Shown here: in pieces, positions 19,234-64,000 of the stretch | How positions within the stretch are numbered: position 1 is the stretch's first letter | Layout of the letters: each line of letters starts with the position of its first letter | Program-made: the position numbers and the translations under genes | Source of the DNA: Eudoraea chungangensis | Lineage (GTDB): Bacteria; Bacteroidota; Bacteroidia; Flavobacteriales; Flavobacteriaceae | Length of the DNA stretch: 64,000 nt | Assembly: GCF_029360665.1 (NCBI RefSeq) | Contig: NZ_JARDUB010000006.1 | Span: 496,001-560,000 of the forward strand | Direction: 5' to 3' | Notes under the pieces: generated by a model | What the model saw: the letters and a program-made list of their open reading frames with translations, nothing else | What the model was told of the DNA's origin: nothing | Database searches by the model: none

Positions 19234-19815
19234 TTAATTTGTTAAAACAATCTTGTGCTTTTCTATGATTTTTCGAAGATTGATTAATGCATATCGCATT
19301 CTTCCCAATGCTGTATTAATACTAACTCCCGTATTTTCTGATATTTCTTTAAAGCTCATATCTTTATAGATACGCATTAATAGGACTTCTCGCTGATCAT
19401 CTGGCAATTCTTCAATTAAACTTCCTAAGTCGCTATCAATTTGATCTTTAATTAACTGCTTTTCTGCATTTAATTTATCATCCCCGATTACAGAAAAGAT
19501 ATTAAAATCGTCACTCCCTTCAAATTTGGGCATTCTTTTGTTCTTCCTAAAATGGTCAATGATAAGATTATGCGCAATTCGCATAACCCATGGCAAAAAT
19601 TTTCCCTCTTCACTATAAGATCCTTTCTTAAGAGTCCTGATAACCTTAATAAAAGTATCCTGAAAGATATCTTCTGTAATGTCTCTATCGAGTACTTTGG
19701 AATAAATGAAACTGCTTATTCGCTGGTTATGTCTCTTTATTAATACTTCAAGTGATTTTTCATTACCGCTGATATAGTCTCTGACTAATTCTGAATCATC
19801 AATTTCGTATTCCAT
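19234..19815 (-). CDS. ECF-type RNA polymerase sigma factor, copy 1
   Basis: 193 residues with sigma region 2 (DIFQDTFIKVI, WVMRIAHNLIIDHFRKNKR, about residues 49-94) and region 4 (EELPDDQREVLLMR ... VSINTALGRMRYA, about 134-178). It should direct RNA polymerase to a specific promoter set. It aligns over its full length, without gaps, to the sigma factor at 20357-20938; about 151 of 193 residues are identical by hand count. No anti-sigma gene is adjacent; instead a 47-residue small gene follows. The leader TTAACCAAAAAA near the start is shared by both copies. Confidence 0.94.
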   Translation of the reverse strand: MEYEIDDSELVRDYISGNEKSLEVLIKRHNQRISSFIYSKVLDRDITEDIFQDTFIKVIRTLKKGSYSEEGKFLPWVMRIAHNLIIDHFRKNKRMPKFEGSDDFNIFSVIGDDKLNAEKQLIKDQIDSDLGSLIEELPDDQREVLLMRIYKDMSFKEISENTGVSINTALGRMRYALINLRKIIEKHKIVLTN

Positions 19816-58198: not shown

Positions 58199-58879
58199 CT
58201 AAACCTCAAGCTTGGCGCCAATATCCAACAGATGTAATGTTTTACCACCAACTTGAAACTTTTCAATAGCATGGGCATGATTAATCTCTATATATCCAAA
58301 AGTATCGTAATGATAACCCAAAATCTCCGTACAGCCTAAGAAATCTGCAGCCAAAATAGCATCTTCTACCCCCATGGTAAAATTATCACCAATAGGTAAA
58401 ATCGCCAAATCTAAACTATACTGCATAGGTATTAGCTGCATATCCATAGATAGTGCCGTATCCCCTGCAATATAAAGAGTTTTATCCATGGCATGAATAA
58501 TAAAACCTCCAGGTTGGCCTCCATAAGTTCCATCTGGAAAAGAAGAGGTGTGAATTGCATTGGTATACTTCACCTTTCCAAAATCAAAATTCCAACTACC
58601 CCCATGATTCATAGGATGTACCGTAAATCCCTTTGCCTGATAATACATGGCTATTTCATAATTACTAACGATAGTAGCTCCTGTTCTTCGGGCAATTGCT
58701 TCAACATCCAAGATATGATCTTGATGTGCATGCGTAACCAAAATGTAATTCGGATTTAATGCGTCTATGTCGACCAAGTCTTTGGTCTTTTCGTTTGCAG
58801 TAATAAAAGGATCAACGAGTATATTGTATTGCCCAATTTCAATAGAAATACAGGCGTGACCCAAAAAAGAAATAATCAT
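58199..58879 (-). CDS. UPF0173 family metal-dependent hydrolase
   Basis: 226 residues, metallo-beta-lactamase fold. FLGHACISIEIG at the start, THAHQDHILDVEAIA with the HxHxDH metal motif, and IAGDTALSMDMQ with the bridging Asp match UPF0173/YtkL. It is cytosolic; the physiological substrate is unknown. It lies between menC and the sensor kinase gene on the same strand. A -7 element at 58896-58903 suggests its own transcript. Confidence 0.93.
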   Translation of the reverse strand: MIISFLGHACISIEIGQYNILVDPFITANEKTKDLVDIDALNPNYILVTHAHQDHILDVEAIARRTGATIVSNYEIAMYYQAKGFTVHPMNHGGSWNFDFGKVKYTNAIHTSSFPDGTYGGQPGGFIIHAMDKTLYIAGDTALSMDMQLIPMQYSLDLAILPIGDNFTMGVEDAILAADFLGCTEILGYHYDTFGYIEINHAHAIEKFQVGGKTLHLLDIGAKLEV

Positions 58880-58895
58880 GTTCGTAAGCTTTATT

Positions 58896-58903
58896 CAAAT
58901 TTA
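58896..58903 (-). promoter_or_regulatory. -7 promoter element of the UPF0173 gene
   Basis: TAAATTTG on the minus strand, 16 bp before the ATG at 58879, overlapping the last codon of the kinase gene. Confidence 0.5.
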
Positions 58904-60859
58904 TTTAAAATTGAACCAAAAACGAACTCCTTCTGTAGTTTTGTCAATATTTAATGTAGACTGCAATTGATTGACCAATCTATTCATTAGGCGAATACCC
59001 ATTGAAGAATTTACTCTTTCATCAGTATCATCGGATAATCCTATTCCGTTATCCGTATATTCAAAAAATCCTTGCTCCCCATTTTTTCTGAGATGTATGT
59101 AAATCTTTCCATCTTCTTTGTCCTCAGGGAAGGCATATTTAAAGGTATTCGAGACCAGTTCATTTAATATAAGACCAAAGGGTATGGCCCGGTCGATATC
59201 TAATTCTACGCTCTCTGCGTCAATAGTAATATTAATATTGTGCCCTCCTTTTTTAAAAACGGATTGCACACTATTTACAAGACTCTCTATATACCCCTGC
59301 ATCTCGATTACAGATAAATCGTCATTCTGATAGAGTTTTTGATGGATAAGTGCCATTGCTTTAACCCTACTTTTCCCTTCTTCTAAAGCCGCTATAGCCG
59401 CTTTACTCCTCGTATTTTTCGTTTGTAAACTCAGAAGACTTGAAACCATTTGCAGATTGTTCTTCACACGATGGTGAATCTCTTTTAAAAGAGAGTCCTT
59501 TTCTACTAGTGAATTTTCTATAATATGTTTTTGATCGGCAATCAGACGTTGGGTTTTTATACTTTTCAAATAGGCGTACACTAAACCAGCGAATCCTAAT
59601 AAGGTAAAAATCAATGAAATAAATACAAGATTAATCTGTTCGTCTTTAGCTTGCATTTCATTTCTAGCCTGTTCCATTTCTAGCTTCTGGGCATCAATCA
59701 TACGTTTAGAATTCTCTATTTCGTATTTAGCTACTGTGGATAACTGCTGTTTTTTTAAGGAAGAATCATTTAGGTTTAAAGAATCGTTAATTCGTACATT
59801 CTGTTTAAGGTAACTTGTGGCTCTTTTATAGTCTTTTGTTTTGTCGTAATAGGCCGCCAATAATCTATTTTTTCTAACAATGTTCTCTAACTTTATTGGG
59901 CGAAGTCTACTGTTAAGTATTTCCTTGGCTTTTTCATAATTTCCCTTCTGCAGATGGCAATCGGCTAATGCCAGACTATTTCCAACTATTTCTTCAGAAT
60001 ATTGTCCGCCATTGTTTTCATTTATTATGGAAATACTATTTTCTAAATAAGGTAAAGCCTCTTCGAATTGTTTTAATTGTAAATAGGCCTTCCCTATATT
60101 ACCTTCAATTTCACCTTTCAGTATTTTGGCATTCTGTAATTCTTTTTCGGTTTTTACTTCAGTGACATCGTTTAAATAAACATCAATATATCCCTTTCCC
60201 TTTTTAAAATTACTCAATGCCACGGAGGACGACTTGTCTAAAAGAAGGTAGTATCCTACCTGATTATTATATTTTGCAAGACCAAATAGATCGGAATCGT
60301 CAATGGTCCTTTTCATATCCATGATATAGTCTTCCATGGCCTTTCTATGGAGTCCTAAGTTTGAATAAATATCATAAAATGTAATATTCTTGGTAAACCC
60401 CAGGTCGCGTTTTTGCTGCCGAATTTCTACCTGTTTTCCATATAATTGTAATTGTCCGTAGTTGTTATCAATTATATCGAACATCAATTGTTTTGTTTGC
60501 CGATCTAAACCTTCTCTAATTTTATATAGATCATTGGCAATAGCGACACTTTTATCGTAATCGCCCAAATCGTAATAAATCTGGGATTGCATTAGCTGAT
60601 ATCTTCGAATAGAAGTAGAATCCTGAATTTTTTCAGCCTGATTTAGGTATACATTAACCTGATCTAACCAATCATAGGCAGAATTTACATTATACCTGTT
60701 CGCTGTGTTAAAGAAGAAAGTTAGTCTGTCATTGACATCTGATTGCTGCTGAAATCTAACCAACAGGTTATCTTCCAAGGAATCAATTACCTGAGCCCCT
60801 GCATTATAACTAATTACTAAAAAGAAAAGAATTAAGAAATTACCCAGTGTTTTTGCCAT
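58901..60859 (-). CDS. TPR sensor histidine kinase (HisKA_2 type)
   Basis: 652 residues. A signal peptide (residues 1-23) leads into a periplasmic region of tetratricopeptide-like repeats (about 30-390), a coiled coil, a membrane helix (about 412-434), then a cytoplasmic kinase: phosphoacceptor His in LLKEIHHRVKNNLQM (HisKA_2) and an ATP-binding domain with NELVSNTFKYAF. Such kinases often pair with LytTR regulators; one lies 681 bp upstream on the same strand. Its promoter region carries a site also present before two predicted small RNAs. It may sense envelope state or a peptide. Confidence 0.93.
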   Translation of the reverse strand: MAKTLGNFLILFFLVISYNAGAQVIDSLEDNLLVRFQQQSDVNDRLTFFFNTANRYNVNSAYDWLDQVNVYLNQAEKIQDSTSIRRYQLMQSQIYYDLGDYDKSVAIANDLYKIREGLDRQTKQLMFDIIDNNYGQLQLYGKQVEIRQQKRDLGFTKNITFYDIYSNLGLHRKAMEDYIMDMKRTIDDSDLFGLAKYNNQVGYYLLLDKSSSVALSNFKKGKGYIDVYLNDVTEVKTEKELQNAKILKGEIEGNIGKAYLQLKQFEEALPYLENSISIINENNGGQYSEEIVGNSLALADCHLQKGNYEKAKEILNSRLRPIKLENIVRKNRLLAAYYDKTKDYKRATSYLKQNVRINDSLNLNDSSLKKQQLSTVAKYEIENSKRMIDAQKLEMEQARNEMQAKDEQINLVFISLIFTLLGFAGLVYAYLKSIKTQRLIADQKHIIENSLVEKDSLLKEIHHRVKNNLQMVSSLLSLQTKNTRSKAAIAALEEGKSRVKAMALIHQKLYQNDDLSVIEMQGYIESLVNSVQSVFKKGGHNINITIDAESVELDIDRAIPFGLILNELVSNTFKYAFPEDKEDGKIYIHLRKNGEQGFFEYTDNGIGLSDDTDERVNSSMGIRLMNRLVNQLQSTLNIDKTTEGVRFWFNFK

Positions 60860-60929
60860 AACATGCCTAGGAGGTTAGCTTTTGATTTTATATTTTTTAA
60901 TATTCTATTGTGACGTTAAAAATACATTT

Positions 60930-60995
60930 TAAACTTACTACTAATAGTTAGCACCGATAAATAATTGTTGTAAAGCCTTCTATTAGCGTTGTCTA
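60930..60995 (-). promoter_or_regulatory. putative LytTR-type promoter of the sensor kinase gene (site 3)
   Basis: On the forward strand a half-site AATTGTTGTA starts at 60963, a second GTTGT core begins at 60988, 21 bp after the first core, and TAAGTTTA (minus strand; one mismatch to TAnnTTTG) lies at 60930-60937, exactly 33 bp from the start of the first half-site. The same spacing occurs at sites 1 and 2. Expected start near 60923, leader about 64 nt. Confidence 0.6.
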
Positions 60996-61087
60996 AATAC
61001 GAATCAACAAGAAATTCTAATTTTAATTTTCCATATTTCATAAAATAGTCTCTATCTATTATTTACCTAATGCGGCAATATTCATAC

Positions 61088-61157
61088 AAAAAAAAGACTA
61101 CGCAATTGCACAGTCTTTCTTCAGATAGATAAATGATAAGATTTGGGGTCTTAATAT
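61088..61157 (-). ncRNA. predicted small RNA B
   Basis: About 70 nt between the promoter at 61164-61227 and an intrinsic terminator: AAAGACT (minus strand) pairs with AGTCTTT around a 12-base partly self-complementary loop, followed by eight T. There is no ATG in the predicted transcript, so a coding function is unlikely. It is one of two such units between the kinase and the LytTR gene. It is a prediction from promoter and terminator only. Confidence 0.55.
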
Positions 61158-61163
61158 TTATTT

Positions 61164-61227
61164 CAAATGTATAATCAAATGGCAGTAGTTTTTCAGAATT
61201 GTTGTGTAACTCAGGATTCTTGTTGTG
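61164..61227 (-). promoter_or_regulatory. putative LytTR-type promoter of small RNA B (site 1)
   Basis: Half-sites TTGTTGTG at 61199-61206 and 61220-61227, exact copies 21 bp apart, followed at 33 bp (from AATT at 61197) by TACATTTG on the minus strand (61164-61171), a perfect TAnnTTTG. Confidence 0.68.
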
Positions 61228-61331
61228 AAATGGTTCAATTTCAGTGTAAAATGCGCTTTATCGATGATTTGTGCTTTTAGTCGAACAAAAATTACTTAGG
61301 TAAGGCTAGACATTCACAAAAACTACAAATG

Positions 61332-61408
61332 AAAAAGAGTCCGATCTATGGAAGACAAGACTCTTTTACGAGAACACTATATGAAAATGAAAAAAATTAT
61401 TCTTTATT
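61332..61408 (-). ncRNA. predicted small RNA A
   Basis: About 77 nt between the promoter at 61415-61478 and a terminator made of AAAAGAGTC and GACTCTTTT (9-bp stem, minus strand) followed by five T. No ATG lies in the predicted transcript. It starts about 130 bp beyond the stop of the LytTR gene. Apart from a terminator of similar composition, it shows no clear similarity to small RNA B. Prediction only. Confidence 0.5.
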
Positions 61409-61414
61409 ACACTA

Positions 61415-61478
61415 CTAAACTAGTCAGGTTTTGCCTTGAATTGAAATAATTGTTGTGAACACCTCTATTCTTGTGGTA
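61415..61478 (-). promoter_or_regulatory. putative LytTR-type promoter of small RNA A (site 2)
   Basis: Half-sites TTGTTGTG at 61450-61457 and TTGTGGTA at 61471-61478, 21 bp apart, then at 33 bp (from AATT at 61448) TAGTTTAG on the minus strand (61415-61422), one mismatch to TAnnTTTG. Confidence 0.62.
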
Positions 61479-61540
61479 AACACGAATATTGTAGGCTTAA
61501 GTACCCCAAAACGAAATAGAAAAAGGAAAGAATATAAATT

Positions 61541-62293
61541 TTAGGAGTTCATCGATGATATAATAAACTCCTTAAAGTCCTTAGAAATAGGAATTAGAGT
61601 ATTATTTATCATAATGTCTTTAGAATTAATCGCGTCAATATGATCCACATTAACTATATAGGACTTATGCGCCCTGTAAAACTTATTACTCGGTAATTTC
61701 CCTAAATAATCCTTTAAAGGAGATCTAACTAAAAACTTCTTATCAACAGTATTAACTTCCAGGTAAACATTATCCGCCTTTATAAAGCGAATATCACCAA
61801 ATTGAATTCTATAGTATAAATGTTGCTTTTTTACAAAAATAGAGTCCTTTAATACAGAGTTAGATACTACCTTATCCCCTACATCTGGTCTTTCGTCTTT
61901 GCCCGTCTTACTGGTGTAATCAAAGTTAGACAAAGCAATTTCTATAGAGGTATATAAATCTTGCTGTTCAAAAGGTTTTACCAAATATCCATTTGGCTTT
62001 ACGGATTTAGCATTTTCTACGGTAGCCCTATCCGAATTGGAAGTAACGAATATGAAAGGGATGTTATAATTCTCTCTTATATGCTTCCCTAAATCTATTC
62101 CTGTCTTATCAGAGGCTAAAATTATATCTATTAAAACTAAATCTACATGATTGTTTTTTAAAACCTCTTCGGCCTGCTCATAGACAATAACATTGTCTAC
62201 TATTTCATAGCCAATTTCTTCTAACATCGATTGCATATCGTCGGCAATAATCACATTGTCTTCTACGATGAGGATCTTAATAGCTTGTTCCAA
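61541..62293 (-). CDS. LytTR family response regulator
   Basis: 250 residues: a receiver domain with the acidic pair ED (11-12), phosphoacceptor Asp56 in LVLIDIILA and Lys106 in YLVKPFEQ, a short linker, then a LytTR DNA-binding domain (about 145-250) with FIKADNVYLEV and the FYRAHKSYIVNVDHI block. LytTR proteins bind imperfect direct repeats about two helical turns apart; such repeats occur three times just downstream. The kinase at 58901-60859 is the likely partner. It has its own -7 element at 62325-62332. Confidence 0.94.
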   Translation of the reverse strand: MEQAIKILIVEDNVIIADDMQSMLEEIGYEIVDNVIVYEQAEEVLKNNHVDLVLIDIILASDKTGIDLGKHIRENYNIPFIFVTSNSDRATVENAKSVKPNGYLVKPFEQQDLYTSIEIALSNFDYTSKTGKDERPDVGDKVVSNSVLKDSIFVKKQHLYYRIQFGDIRFIKADNVYLEVNTVDKKFLVRSPLKDYLGKLPSNKFYRAHKSYIVNVDHIDAINSKDIMINNTLIPISKDFKEFIISSMNS

Positions 62294-62324
62294 AGTAAGT
62301 GAGGTATTAAGTGGTTATTTAATT

Positions 62325-62332
62325 CAAATTTA
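62325..62332 (-). promoter_or_regulatory. -7 promoter element of the LytTR gene
   Basis: TAAATTTG on the minus strand, 31 bp before the ATG at 62293, overlapping the stop codon of menA. Confidence 0.5.
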
Positions 62333-63235
62333 CAAAAAATTATAATAACCTAAATAAAACAAGATAGCCAGCAAGAAAGTACTTAGTGCTACTTTTTTTA
62401 ATTCGGGATCAAAAGATTTAGGTTCTACTATGCTTCTAACGGTTTTCAGATGCATTAAAATTGGTACAAAGGCGATAACGCTAATTATACCCAGCCAGGA
62501 AGTTGTCTGCCTACTGAGAAAAGCAACCCAACATAGCATGGCTGCCACTAATAAGGTGCTATGGTACACCTTGCCATTTTGGATTCCGATTTTAACGATA
62601 ACGGTGTTTTTTCCAGCCTTTTTATCAGACTCAAAGTCTCTTAAATTATTTAAATTAAGAACTGCCGTACTCAAAAACCCTATCGTGCAAGCAGGGAGTA
62701 CAGCATCTATGGGAATATTCTGCACATATAAAAAAAGGGTGCCCAAAACACTTAAAAGCCCAAAGAAAACAAAAACAAAGATATCTCCAAACCCTCTGTA
62801 TCCATATGCATTGCTGCCGACGGTGTATTTAATTGCAGCCCAGATACTGCAAAGACCAAGGACTACAAATAGGAAGAAATACCATAAATCTTCCTTAAAA
62901 GCAGTATAAAGAAGGAGAAAAATAAGTATCAGACAAACAAAAACTGAAATGATGATACCTCTTTTCAATTCTTTTCTGCTCAATTCTCCGCTCTGGAAAG
63001 CTCTAGTTGGTCCAATACGATCTAATCCGTCTGTCCCCTTTATACCATCTCCGTAATCGTTTGCAAAATTTGAGGTTACCTGCAGAGCGACGGTAGTTAA
63101 TAGTGCCAATAGAAATATAAGAGTGTCCTCATATCCTAGCCATTGTGCCAAAGCGGTACCTACAATAATTCCTGAAAGTGATAGGGGTAATGTTCTTAAA
63201 CGGGCTGCCCCAAGCCAAGCTTTAAACTTCCCCAC
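62330..63235 (-). CDS. menA: 1,4-dihydroxy-2-naphthoate polyprenyltransferase
   Basis: 301 residues, GTG start, UbiA-family integral membrane enzyme with about nine helices that attaches the polyprenyl chain in menaquinone synthesis. The prenyl-diphosphate (Mg) motifs are NFANDYGDGIKGTDG and NNLRDFESDKKAGK. Its GTG overlaps the stop of the SPOR-like gene by one base (TAGTG). menC and menE are about 4 kb away on the same strand, separated by the two-component system. Confidence 0.95.
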   Translation of the reverse strand: MGKFKAWLGAARLRTLPLSLSGIIVGTALAQWLGYEDTLIFLLALLTTVALQVTSNFANDYGDGIKGTDGLDRIGPTRAFQSGELSRKELKRGIIISVFVCLILIFLLLYTAFKEDLWYFFLFVVLGLCSIWAAIKYTVGSNAYGYRGFGDIFVFVFFGLLSVLGTLFLYVQNIPIDAVLPACTIGFLSTAVLNLNNLRDFESDKKAGKNTVIVKIGIQNGKVYHSTLLVAAMLCWVAFLSRQTTSWLGIISVIAFVPILMHLKTVRSIVEPKSFDPELKKVALSTFLLAILFYLGYYNFL

Positions 63236-63834
63236 TAATATGGGTCTTCAATTTTTAAACGCTTACCATCCTGATATGAAGCCACAAAGGCATCATCAAA
63301 TCCCATTTTCACCAATTGATATCTAAAAGATCTGGCTTCTTCAAGGGTTTCAAAGTTTCCTAAGGAGTAAGAATAAAACGGATTGGTCTTAACGAACATT
63401 GTATTGGCAAGTGATTCTGCAGAAAGCGTTATGTTGTTATCCACAAAGGATTTTACCTGAACTGAGTATATCTTTTCTTTTTGTAAAAAGCGTTTGGCCA
63501 TATAAAATTCATTAACCAAACTAAGCTCTTCATTTTTCTGCTTTAAATTATCTATTCTAGTTTTTACTGCCTCTAAACTATCAATTGATACTAACAGATT
63601 TCTATTTTCATAGGTATTGGAGCTACTGGAAAGTCCGGCAGTAAAAGAAGTTATCGCTAAAGTACCTATCAAAAATAAAGCGGTAACCCCGGCCAATACA
63701 TTCCGTTGTATTTTGCTTTTTTTAAGTTCTTTATTCTTAAACTTTATTTGATCTAGAAGGCGCTCATTTATAATTTGAGCTTTGTCTATATCTTTATGTA
63801 ATTCAAGCAAATCACTTTCTTCGATAAATGGCAT
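63235..63834 (-). CDS. membrane protein with coiled coil and SPOR-like domain
   Basis: 199 residues: a cytoplasmic coiled coil (about 8-42, Lys/Glu/Leu rich), a membrane helix (about 47-66), a second short coiled coil, and a C-terminal domain of about 75 residues with YSVQVKSF and ETLEEARSFRYQLVKMGFDDAFVASYQDG, a SPOR-type fold that in other proteins binds denuded peptidoglycan. It probably acts at the envelope, perhaps the division site. It is translationally coupled to menA. Confidence 0.8.
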   Translation of the reverse strand: MPFIEESDLLELHKDIDKAQIINERLLDQIKFKNKELKKSKIQRNVLAGVTALFLIGTLAITSFTAGLSSSSNTYENRNLLVSIDSLEAVKTRIDNLKQKNEELSLVNEFYMAKRFLQKEKIYSVQVKSFVDNNITLSAESLANTMFVKTNPFYSYSLGNFETLEEARSFRYQLVKMGFDDAFVASYQDGKRLKIEDPY

Positions 63835-64000
63835 AGGTAGCTAAATTTTGGAAACGTTCAGTTAAAATTAACTAAAAAGCTTATAATCAGCAAAATAATT
63901 AATTCCATACTGCAAAAATAATTTATTTAGATGAGGAAAAAAATATAGAACAAACTCAATTATACTTTATTTTACTTTTTTAATTGATATATGCCGTCTT
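63835..64000. other. terminal non-coding stretch
   Basis: AT-rich sequence upstream of the SPOR-like gene. A -7 match for the minus strand (TATTTTTG) lies at 63913-63920, 79 bp before its start. No frame with coding character is seen before the window ends. Confidence 0.4.

Follow-up and report, generated by a model that had tools for sequence, protein, structure and literature searches.

The genes for a LytTR response regulator and a sensor histidine kinase of Eudoraea chungangensis are separated by a 681-nt gap, and the question raised by this locus is what is transcribed from the gap and how far the control exerted there extends. The reading favored here, to which we give a probability of about three in four on the basis of sequence analysis, is that a LytTR circuit controls a layer of small RNAs (sRNAs) along with its own kinase and an ECF sigma factor, with sRNA A directed against the message of a CAP-domain lipoprotein and sRNA B against another RNA, D. 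A preliminary description of this DNA had proposed a LytTR circuit with two sRNAs and feedback on the kinase; this proposal finds support in promoter spacing, co-occurrence, the recurrent promoter of A, and covariation, and it is too small: A belongs to a multicopy family and has a conserved predicted target, B could pair along its complementary stretch with a second family of RNAs, and the ECF sigma factor has the same promoter.

The regulator-kinase gap and its promoters

The features of the locus, in coordinates of the window (the whole 64-kb stretch of DNA analyzed), are the following:

58901..60859, minus strand: sensor histidine kinase, 652 aa, with TPR repeats, HisKA_2, and HATPase_c
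60930..60992, minus strand: promoter P1, for the kinase gene; ACAACG/ACAACA, with TAAGTTTA at +34
61088..61159, minus strand: sRNA B, predicted, ∼72 nt, with terminator hairpin
61133..61148, minus strand: CCCCAAATCTTATCAT in sRNA B, complementary to sRNA D over 16 pairs, one of them G-U
61164..61226, minus strand: promoter P2, for sRNA B; ACAACA/ACAACA, with TACATTTG at +34
61328..61410, minus strand: sRNA A, predicted, ∼83 nt; start placed by means of the −7 box, end at the T run of the terminator
61365..61393, minus strand: 29-nt core of sRNA A, TTTTCATTTTCATATAGTGTTCTCGTAAA, the predicted mRNA-pairing region
61416..61477, minus strand: promoter P3, for sRNA A; ACCACA/ACAACA 21 bp apart, with TAGTTTA at +34; kept in congeners
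61541..62293, minus strand: LytTR response regulator, 250 aa, receiver PF00072 and LytTR PF04397

The entire stretch 58901-62293 is on the minus strand, and both domains of the regulator score above their curated cut-offs (PF00072, 73.8 bits; PF04397, 62.4 bits). The pair seems to be placed among menaquinone genes, given its neighbors: a UbiA-type prenyltransferase on one side, and on the other a metallo-hydrolase and a MenC-like, enolase-like protein, the MenC_N match of which is below its cut-off. Regarding the orthologues of the regulator, in a sample of 60 genomes the identity is 92-93% in nine congeners and 88-90% in four other genera, and the next value is ∼40%.

As for the promoters, the gap carries three on the minus strand, at the places first described, sharing the architecture ACMACR-N15-ACAACA-N28-TA: the distal half-sites begin at 61477, 61226, and 60992, the second half-site follows 21 nt further on, and in each case the TA of the −7 element lies 34 nt past the first base of the proximal ACAACA. 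The GTTGT/GTGGT half-sites of the preliminary description are present and 21 bp apart, and the conserved half-site is now refined to ACMACR/ACAACA; the fixed distance to a TAnnTTTG element holds for the TA of all three, but the element of P3 has the form TA-N1-TTTR, one base shorter, and the same form occurs in the congeners, L011, and L012. The starts of the sRNAs and of the kinase transcript were placed with the −7 box at −12 to −5, the position mapped in Flavobacterium psychrophilum (PMC9723704, available text); the third promoter leads to the kinase, as had been proposed, and the kinase transcript on this basis has a predicted start near 60925 and a predicted 5′ UTR of ∼66 nt.

The shared pattern has exactly three matches in the window against none in 100 dinucleotide-preserving shuffles; because it was derived from these three sites, independent support is given by its recurrence elsewhere. 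In 120 loci holding RNA A plus the window, the pattern ACHACA-N15-ACAWCA followed by TAn1-2TTTR occurs at 137 places with a gap of 28, at two with a gap of 29, and at none with the nine other gaps tried (20-36); similarly, a half-site spacer of 15 is found at 137 places, one of 12 at eight, and the seven other spacers tried at none. These loci were chosen for holding RNA A, so the counts speak for fixed spacing and not for rarity. LytTR repeats are spaced about two helical turns, and the half-sites here are direct repeats 21 bp apart from start to start. Tandem direct repeats are also what is described for LytTR target promoters (PMC4847170, available text), and we infer that P1-P3 are bound by the adjacent LytTR regulator. 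In the proposed mechanism, the TPR/HisKA_2 kinase would phosphorylate the regulator; this, in turn, would bind the observed pairs of ACAACA half-sites, two helical turns apart and always equally far from a −7 element of the sigma-A type, and would activate its own kinase gene, the ECF sigma factor, several dispersed copies of A, and B.

The conservation of the spacing in relatives that keep kinase and regulator, proposed earlier as a check, is exact for all three sites in 10 of 10 Eudoraea loci (nine congeners and the window) and in L011, from one other genus; fewer sites occur in three other genera, namely two in L012, two with another or no offset in L013, and one in L014. Eleven more distant orthologues of the regulator (56-79% identical) were also considered: half-site pairs are present in nine of the 11 stretches and were not found in those of G308 and G373, seven of the nine have a −7 element at +34 or +55, and in G092 the pair stands before the regulator gene itself. 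The core of A, allowing up to three mismatches, was found in none of these 11 regulator stretches; in G109 and G319 the first promoter is followed by transcripts with CCCAAAT and a hairpin, and G089 (regulator 78% identical) has A-like cores and promoter sites.

sRNA A and its predicted target

The two ATG-less RNAs of ∼70-80 nt with terminators that had been proposed come out at 72-83 nt; ATG is absent from both intervals, and folding gives hairpins followed by U (z −4.45 and −2.37); a mechanical terminator scan of the window lists neither terminator. The 29-nt core of A is identical in 12 of the 14 regulator loci compared, has one change in L013, and was not found in L014. With a covariance model of A, 86 of 397 genomes of the family gave matches at E ≤ 0.01, 71 of them strong (E < 1e-6) and 15 weak; the 71 strong genomes have at least 218 matches at E ≤ 0.01, from one to seven per genome, and 30 model-found loci fetched from the best-scoring genomes have the exact 29-mer in 27 cases and one change in three. 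At the order level, the model found A in six of 246 genomes, all six in the family of the window (the share of the 246 outside the family is not stated). The exact 29-mer occurs in at least 120 stretches of GTDB genomes, from Eudoraea, Maribacter, Arenibacter, Zobellia, Pseudozobellia, Allomuricauda/Flagellimonas, Cellulophaga, Robiginitalea, Muriicola, Euzebyella, Croceitalea, Croceivirga, Saonia, and others; the core is invariant in these 120 loci by construction, because they were found with it.

The 120 loci hold 135 copies of the core, six of which are too near an end, and all 129 analyzable copies have within 160 nt upstream a half-site pair with a score of 10 or more out of 12 (96 at 12, 32 at 11, one at 10); a score of 11 or 12 is reached by 97 of 5000 random windows taken from these loci. 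The −7 element is at +34 in 102 copies, at +55 in 16, which have an extra, third half-site 21 bp further on, and elsewhere or not found in 11. In some A promoters (L065, L085, L132, and others) the three half-sites form a 21-bp ladder, the last being ACATCA. Covariation of the terminator, the other check put forward earlier, is found in the stem of A, a part left free by the 29-mer: in an alignment fitted to the model (88 copies from 77 of the 120 loci), nine pairs changed on both sides, 93.5% of the cells are paired, and 99 cells have double changes, against 18.0 in shuffled and 0-32 in slid controls; RNAalifold alone predicts the same stem. By this sequence evidence, A is a multicopy family in which each copy has its own promoter and intrinsic terminator.

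These data bear on whether the A and B intervals are cis-acting attenuators or leader peptides instead of free sRNAs, which is highly improbable. The intervals do follow one another on a single strand upstream of the kinase, and there is a weak, sub-threshold Rfam match to a leader; however, copies of A occur elsewhere with the same promoter and terminator, and in the gap each terminator is followed by a fresh promoter. A leader-peptide reading of A was rejected because ATG is absent and the spacing before the core varies, by more than 20 nt between genera. As for Rfam 15, no family, RNAIII included, reached its gathering score in window positions 58500-64000 or in the six loci examined that carry RNAs A, B, C, or D, and the sub-threshold matches (Leu_leader, E 0.012; STnc40, Thr_leader, and others) were taken as chance.

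The distribution of A follows that of the regulator. At E ≤ 1e-60, the regulator is present in 82 of the 397 family genomes; all 71 genomes with strong A are among these 82, no strong match was found in the 315 family genomes lacking the regulator, and A is not strong in 11 of the 82. The Fisher p value of ∼3e-67 is uncorrected for shared ancestry, and the regulator-bearing genomes are probably one clade, so that the counts are not independent events.

Regarding the target, ten Eudoraea genomes were scanned for the complement of the A core, allowing three mismatches at most. Besides the copies of A, the same 18-mer with one terminal mismatch occurs in each of the ten, among the matches listed and the loci fetched; in nine of nine genomes fetched (the tenth, G005, was left out) it spans the start codon of one and the same gene, for a predicted lipoprotein of 158 aa with a CAP domain (PF00188, E 2e-11), and G000 has one more single-mismatch site, within coding sequence (L305). 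The contiguous complement measures 17 nt in the genome of the window and 20 in G004; overall, it is 17-23 nt long in Eudoraea and six other genera, and shorter or absent in the rest, and 16 fetched pattern hits place the site at CAP homologues of seven other genera. Of the remaining near matches among these 16, two lie at the starts of an unrelated lipoprotein in G390 (L295) and of a peptidase-like frame in G160 (L296), and one belongs to another copy of A (L304); those in G082, G010, G011, G134 (two), and G000 fall in coding or unassigned sequence. A second segment of A, TTACGAGAACACTATATG, was also tried as a target finder (up to two mismatches, 20 genomes); its matches were A-copy sequence except for three two-mismatch sites, in G134, G000, and G002.

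A search of 36 genomes for CAP homologues gave one at E ≤ 1e-20 in 31, and 30 loci were retrieved; the count of complementary runs left out G128 and G030, with no usable ORF, and used a CAP paralogue for G107, whose site is in L293. In 22 A-bearing genomes, the longest run complementary to A is 7-23 nt, at least 17 nt in seven of them, and it is above all 200 shuffles in 13 of the 22 (in G191 only by ATGAAAAAAT, a common start sequence); in six genomes lacking A, the longest run is 6-8 nt and above the shuffles in none, which is a weak control, since these CAP homologues are more distant proteins. No notable complementarity was found in the best CAP homologue of G134, G234, and G181; in G069, G064, and G246 the exact runs are short (7-9 nt), and the 11-nt runs of G010 and G082 are not above their shuffles. 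In the genome of the window, the A-CAP duplex has an energy of −38.5 kcal/mol (z −4.2), compared with −37.2 for the strongest among 300 shuffles. Where the target deviates, 16 of 26 deviations keep a G-U pair with A (A>G or C>U), and 14 of 21 do in the noncoding part, with shared changes counted once per genome; the expectation is about a third or less for random changes, and more for transitions. This count covers 17 genomes (18 were given and G082 was dropped for an indel; four site-less genomes were left out). It should be noted that the target overlaps coding sequence, so the protein may explain part of its conservation. Further exact copies of ACGAGAACAC, the complement of the core's end, are found in two CAP leaders, L291 and L292, and shorter or imperfect forms in others.

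The complementarity of A to a trans-encoded mRNA is, by these comparisons, conserved. In the proposed mechanism, the nearly invariant core, which precedes the terminator hairpin, would pair with the start codon region of the CAP lipoprotein message; pairing across a start codon suggests that A represses translation of the lipoprotein, as FopS does in Bacteroides. Many sRNA seeds are shorter than the 26-29 nt conserved in the core of A, which would suit an RNA that mainly titrates an RNA-binding protein, the CAP complementarity being a side effect. RbpB, moreover, binds multicopy sRNAs in Bacteroides (PMC11697453, available text). Even so, such titration is an unlikely main role, considering that the complement runs contiguously across a start codon in several genera, that changes in the target are often G-U compatible, and that ACGAGAACAC recurs in the leaders named above.

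sRNA B, the D array, and the proposed wider regulon

The core of B is kept in the congeners and has diverged in L011. A search for its complement in the ten Eudoraea genomes gave tandem, near-identical sites in eight: the D array. Its units measure ∼70 nt, and each combines a −7-like box, a conserved region of 40 nt that ends in GGTAAGATTTGGGR, and a hairpin followed by a T run; the array lies between what we take to be a superoxide-dismutase-like and an amidophosphoribosyltransferase-like frame. Arrays of 4-5 units with CCATAGCATAAGTAGGTTAAGTTCATGGTAAGATTTGGGG are present in L318 (G000:C1:571602-572501), L317, and L320; D has no Rfam match at the gathering score. A 28-mer of D, with up to three mismatches, is found in 148 of 397 family genomes, namely 80 of the 82 that bear the regulator, at 2-7 copies, and 68 of the 315 that lack it, 56 of these being single-copy; a reversed control pattern gave none among the matches listed.

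The B-D duplex has an energy of −30.7 kcal/mol (z −2.3 and −2.5), moderately below the shuffles, some of which are stronger. Further evidence comes from 77 non-A transcripts behind the promoter, many of which are orthologues: 31 share 9-16 nt with the D complement, and 17 of these share 11-16 nt, above all 50 shuffles. The same complement, at 9 nt or more, is present in none of 100 A transcripts, and it was not found in the RNA behind the promoter of Muricauda relatives. Pairing of A with B and of A with D gave no clear signal (z −1.5 and 0.1), and B shows none with the CAP leader (z 0.0). Two side observations concern RNAs of this kind: L322 has a hairpin-ended stretch with a ∼30 nt interrupted D complement (CCCAAATCTTATCAAACTAAACCTACTTA), possibly another sponge for D; and what follows the promoter in Muricauda/Flagellimonas relatives (L061, L072, L077, L089, L122, L139, L147, L167, and others) is a different conserved sequence, CGTTCTTTATATACCCCATAC, which in some loci stands directly downstream of A, in the place of B.

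The simplest reading, and the most likely one, is that B is a sponge for D: it would expose CCCCAAAUCUUA, the observed complement to the conserved region of the tandem D units, and sequester D, thereby freeing the regulon mRNAs with CCCCAAAU leaders. The reverse, with D as the antagonist that removes B and the other CCCCAAAU transcripts, is possible although less probable: the presence of D in 68 genomes lacking the regulator suggests that D may be older, with other partners, and the leaders of some regulon mRNAs do carry the CCCCAAAU element; against it, B has no other evident product. The 2-7 copies of D where the regulator occurs fit either direction.

A promoter profile gave further sites in the ten Eudoraea genomes, and 20 of these sites were read in context: four belong to further copies of A and five to a transcript, C, that carries CCCCAAATC elements and a hairpin. 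Leaders of a short ORF account for three more, those of a secreted-type protein and of a PAS protein for two each, and four sites stand before other frames with complete or partial patterns. The C transcripts behind this promoter are those of L216, L221, L226, L229, and L230, two of them ∼400 bp apart; in L214, L224, and L227 the promoter is followed by a short ORF of ∼35 codons (MDAQINHRPIEEEIQVYRNEFFSGI...), with a CCCCAAAT leader and its own hairpin. CCCCAAAT is also carried by CAP leaders of A-less genomes (L391, L392, L396), a hint that D-type control may be older than A.

Within the window, a promoter of the same architecture stands before a sigma factor:

19234..19815, minus strand: ECF-type sigma factor, 193 aa, with Sigma70_r2 and Sigma70_r4_2; a second copy is close by in the genome
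19905..19973, minus strand: fourth promoter of the same architecture, ACATCA/ACAACA, before the ECF-type sigma factor

Two copies of the sigma factor are present in 21 of the 22 regulator-bearing genomes examined, against a single copy in each of the four examined that lack the regulator. With the half-sites written as ACHWCR, the architecture precedes it in 21 of the 22, the 22nd having a gap of 29, and in none of the four. These counts matter for the identity of the regulator: the promoters and RNAs may be real and the sites bound by another protein, e.g., a different one among the LytTR proteins that the genome encodes. The genome has 21 matches to the LytTR query protein, so another regulator could bind; the adjacency of this one, the kinase promoter of the same type, the restriction of strong A to genomes with this orthologue (71/71 vs 0/315), and the sigma promoter (21/22 vs 0/4) make this improbable, even if shared ancestry may inflate all of these.

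We hold at about even odds the fuller version in which one LytTR system of the Flavobacteriaceae commands interlocking sRNAs: A would silence the CAP lipoprotein by pairing at its start codon, B and C would be decoys for a separately controlled D, the ECF sigma factor would belong to the same regulon, and the CCCCAAAU leader would be a general mRNA address recognized by D. A regulator commanding A, the decoys B and C, and the sigma factor would switch transcription, translation, and sRNA availability together.

Relation to known systems and meaning

Among the regulators of the systems closest in kind, VirR and AgrA are LytTR proteins, both from Bacillota, and CiaR is an OmpR-type regulator. 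In VirR/VirS of Clostridium perfringens (VR-RNA, VirT, VirU) and AgrA/RNAIII of Staphylococcus aureus, response regulators activate regulatory RNAs, as proposed here (PMC7602753, available text); VR-RNA has 386 nt and RNAIII 514 nt, whereas the RNAs considered here are ∼70-85 nt long, multicopy, and from Bacteroidota, and the kinase gene has a promoter of the type that precedes them. The streptococcal CiaRH csRNAs are alike in that five sibling sRNAs of 87-151 nt belong to one two-component regulon and act on comC mRNA; they differ in phylum, and a complementary second sRNA array is not mentioned for them in the available text of PMC7602753. In Bacteroides, FopS and GibS, likened to A by description only, are multicopy sRNAs of Bacteroidota that bind near start codons and repress surface-protein mRNAs (PMC11697453, available text), but they have 14 copies and SusC targets, and LytTR is not named in that text. 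Likewise by description only, Rfp18 of F. psychrophilum is a flavobacterial sRNA predicted to pair with metalloprotease and secreted adhesin messages, and its deletion lowers metalloprotease mRNA; LytTR is not mentioned in the available part of that transcriptome paper (PMC9723704). No description of a LytTR-driven sRNA regulon in Bacteroidota was found in the literature searched, which reached few subscription journals or preprints. The kind of system is therefore already known, because regulatory RNAs under AgrA and VirR have been described; what would be new, as far as these searches reach, is the phylum, the architecture, and the RNA sequences.

In conclusion, much less has been worked out about sRNA control in Bacteroidota than about that in Pseudomonadota or Bacillota. 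A comparable remark is made on paralogous sRNAs in the available text of PMC11697453. Against this background, one locus offers a regulator candidate together with an exact promoter code, a multicopy RNA with strong matches in 71 of the 397 family genomes sampled, one predicted target that is strongly conserved, and a probable sponge with its partner RNA, and the RNA control layer it suggests for marine Flavobacteriaceae is directly testable in culturable Zobellia, Maribacter, Cellulophaga, or Eudoraea.
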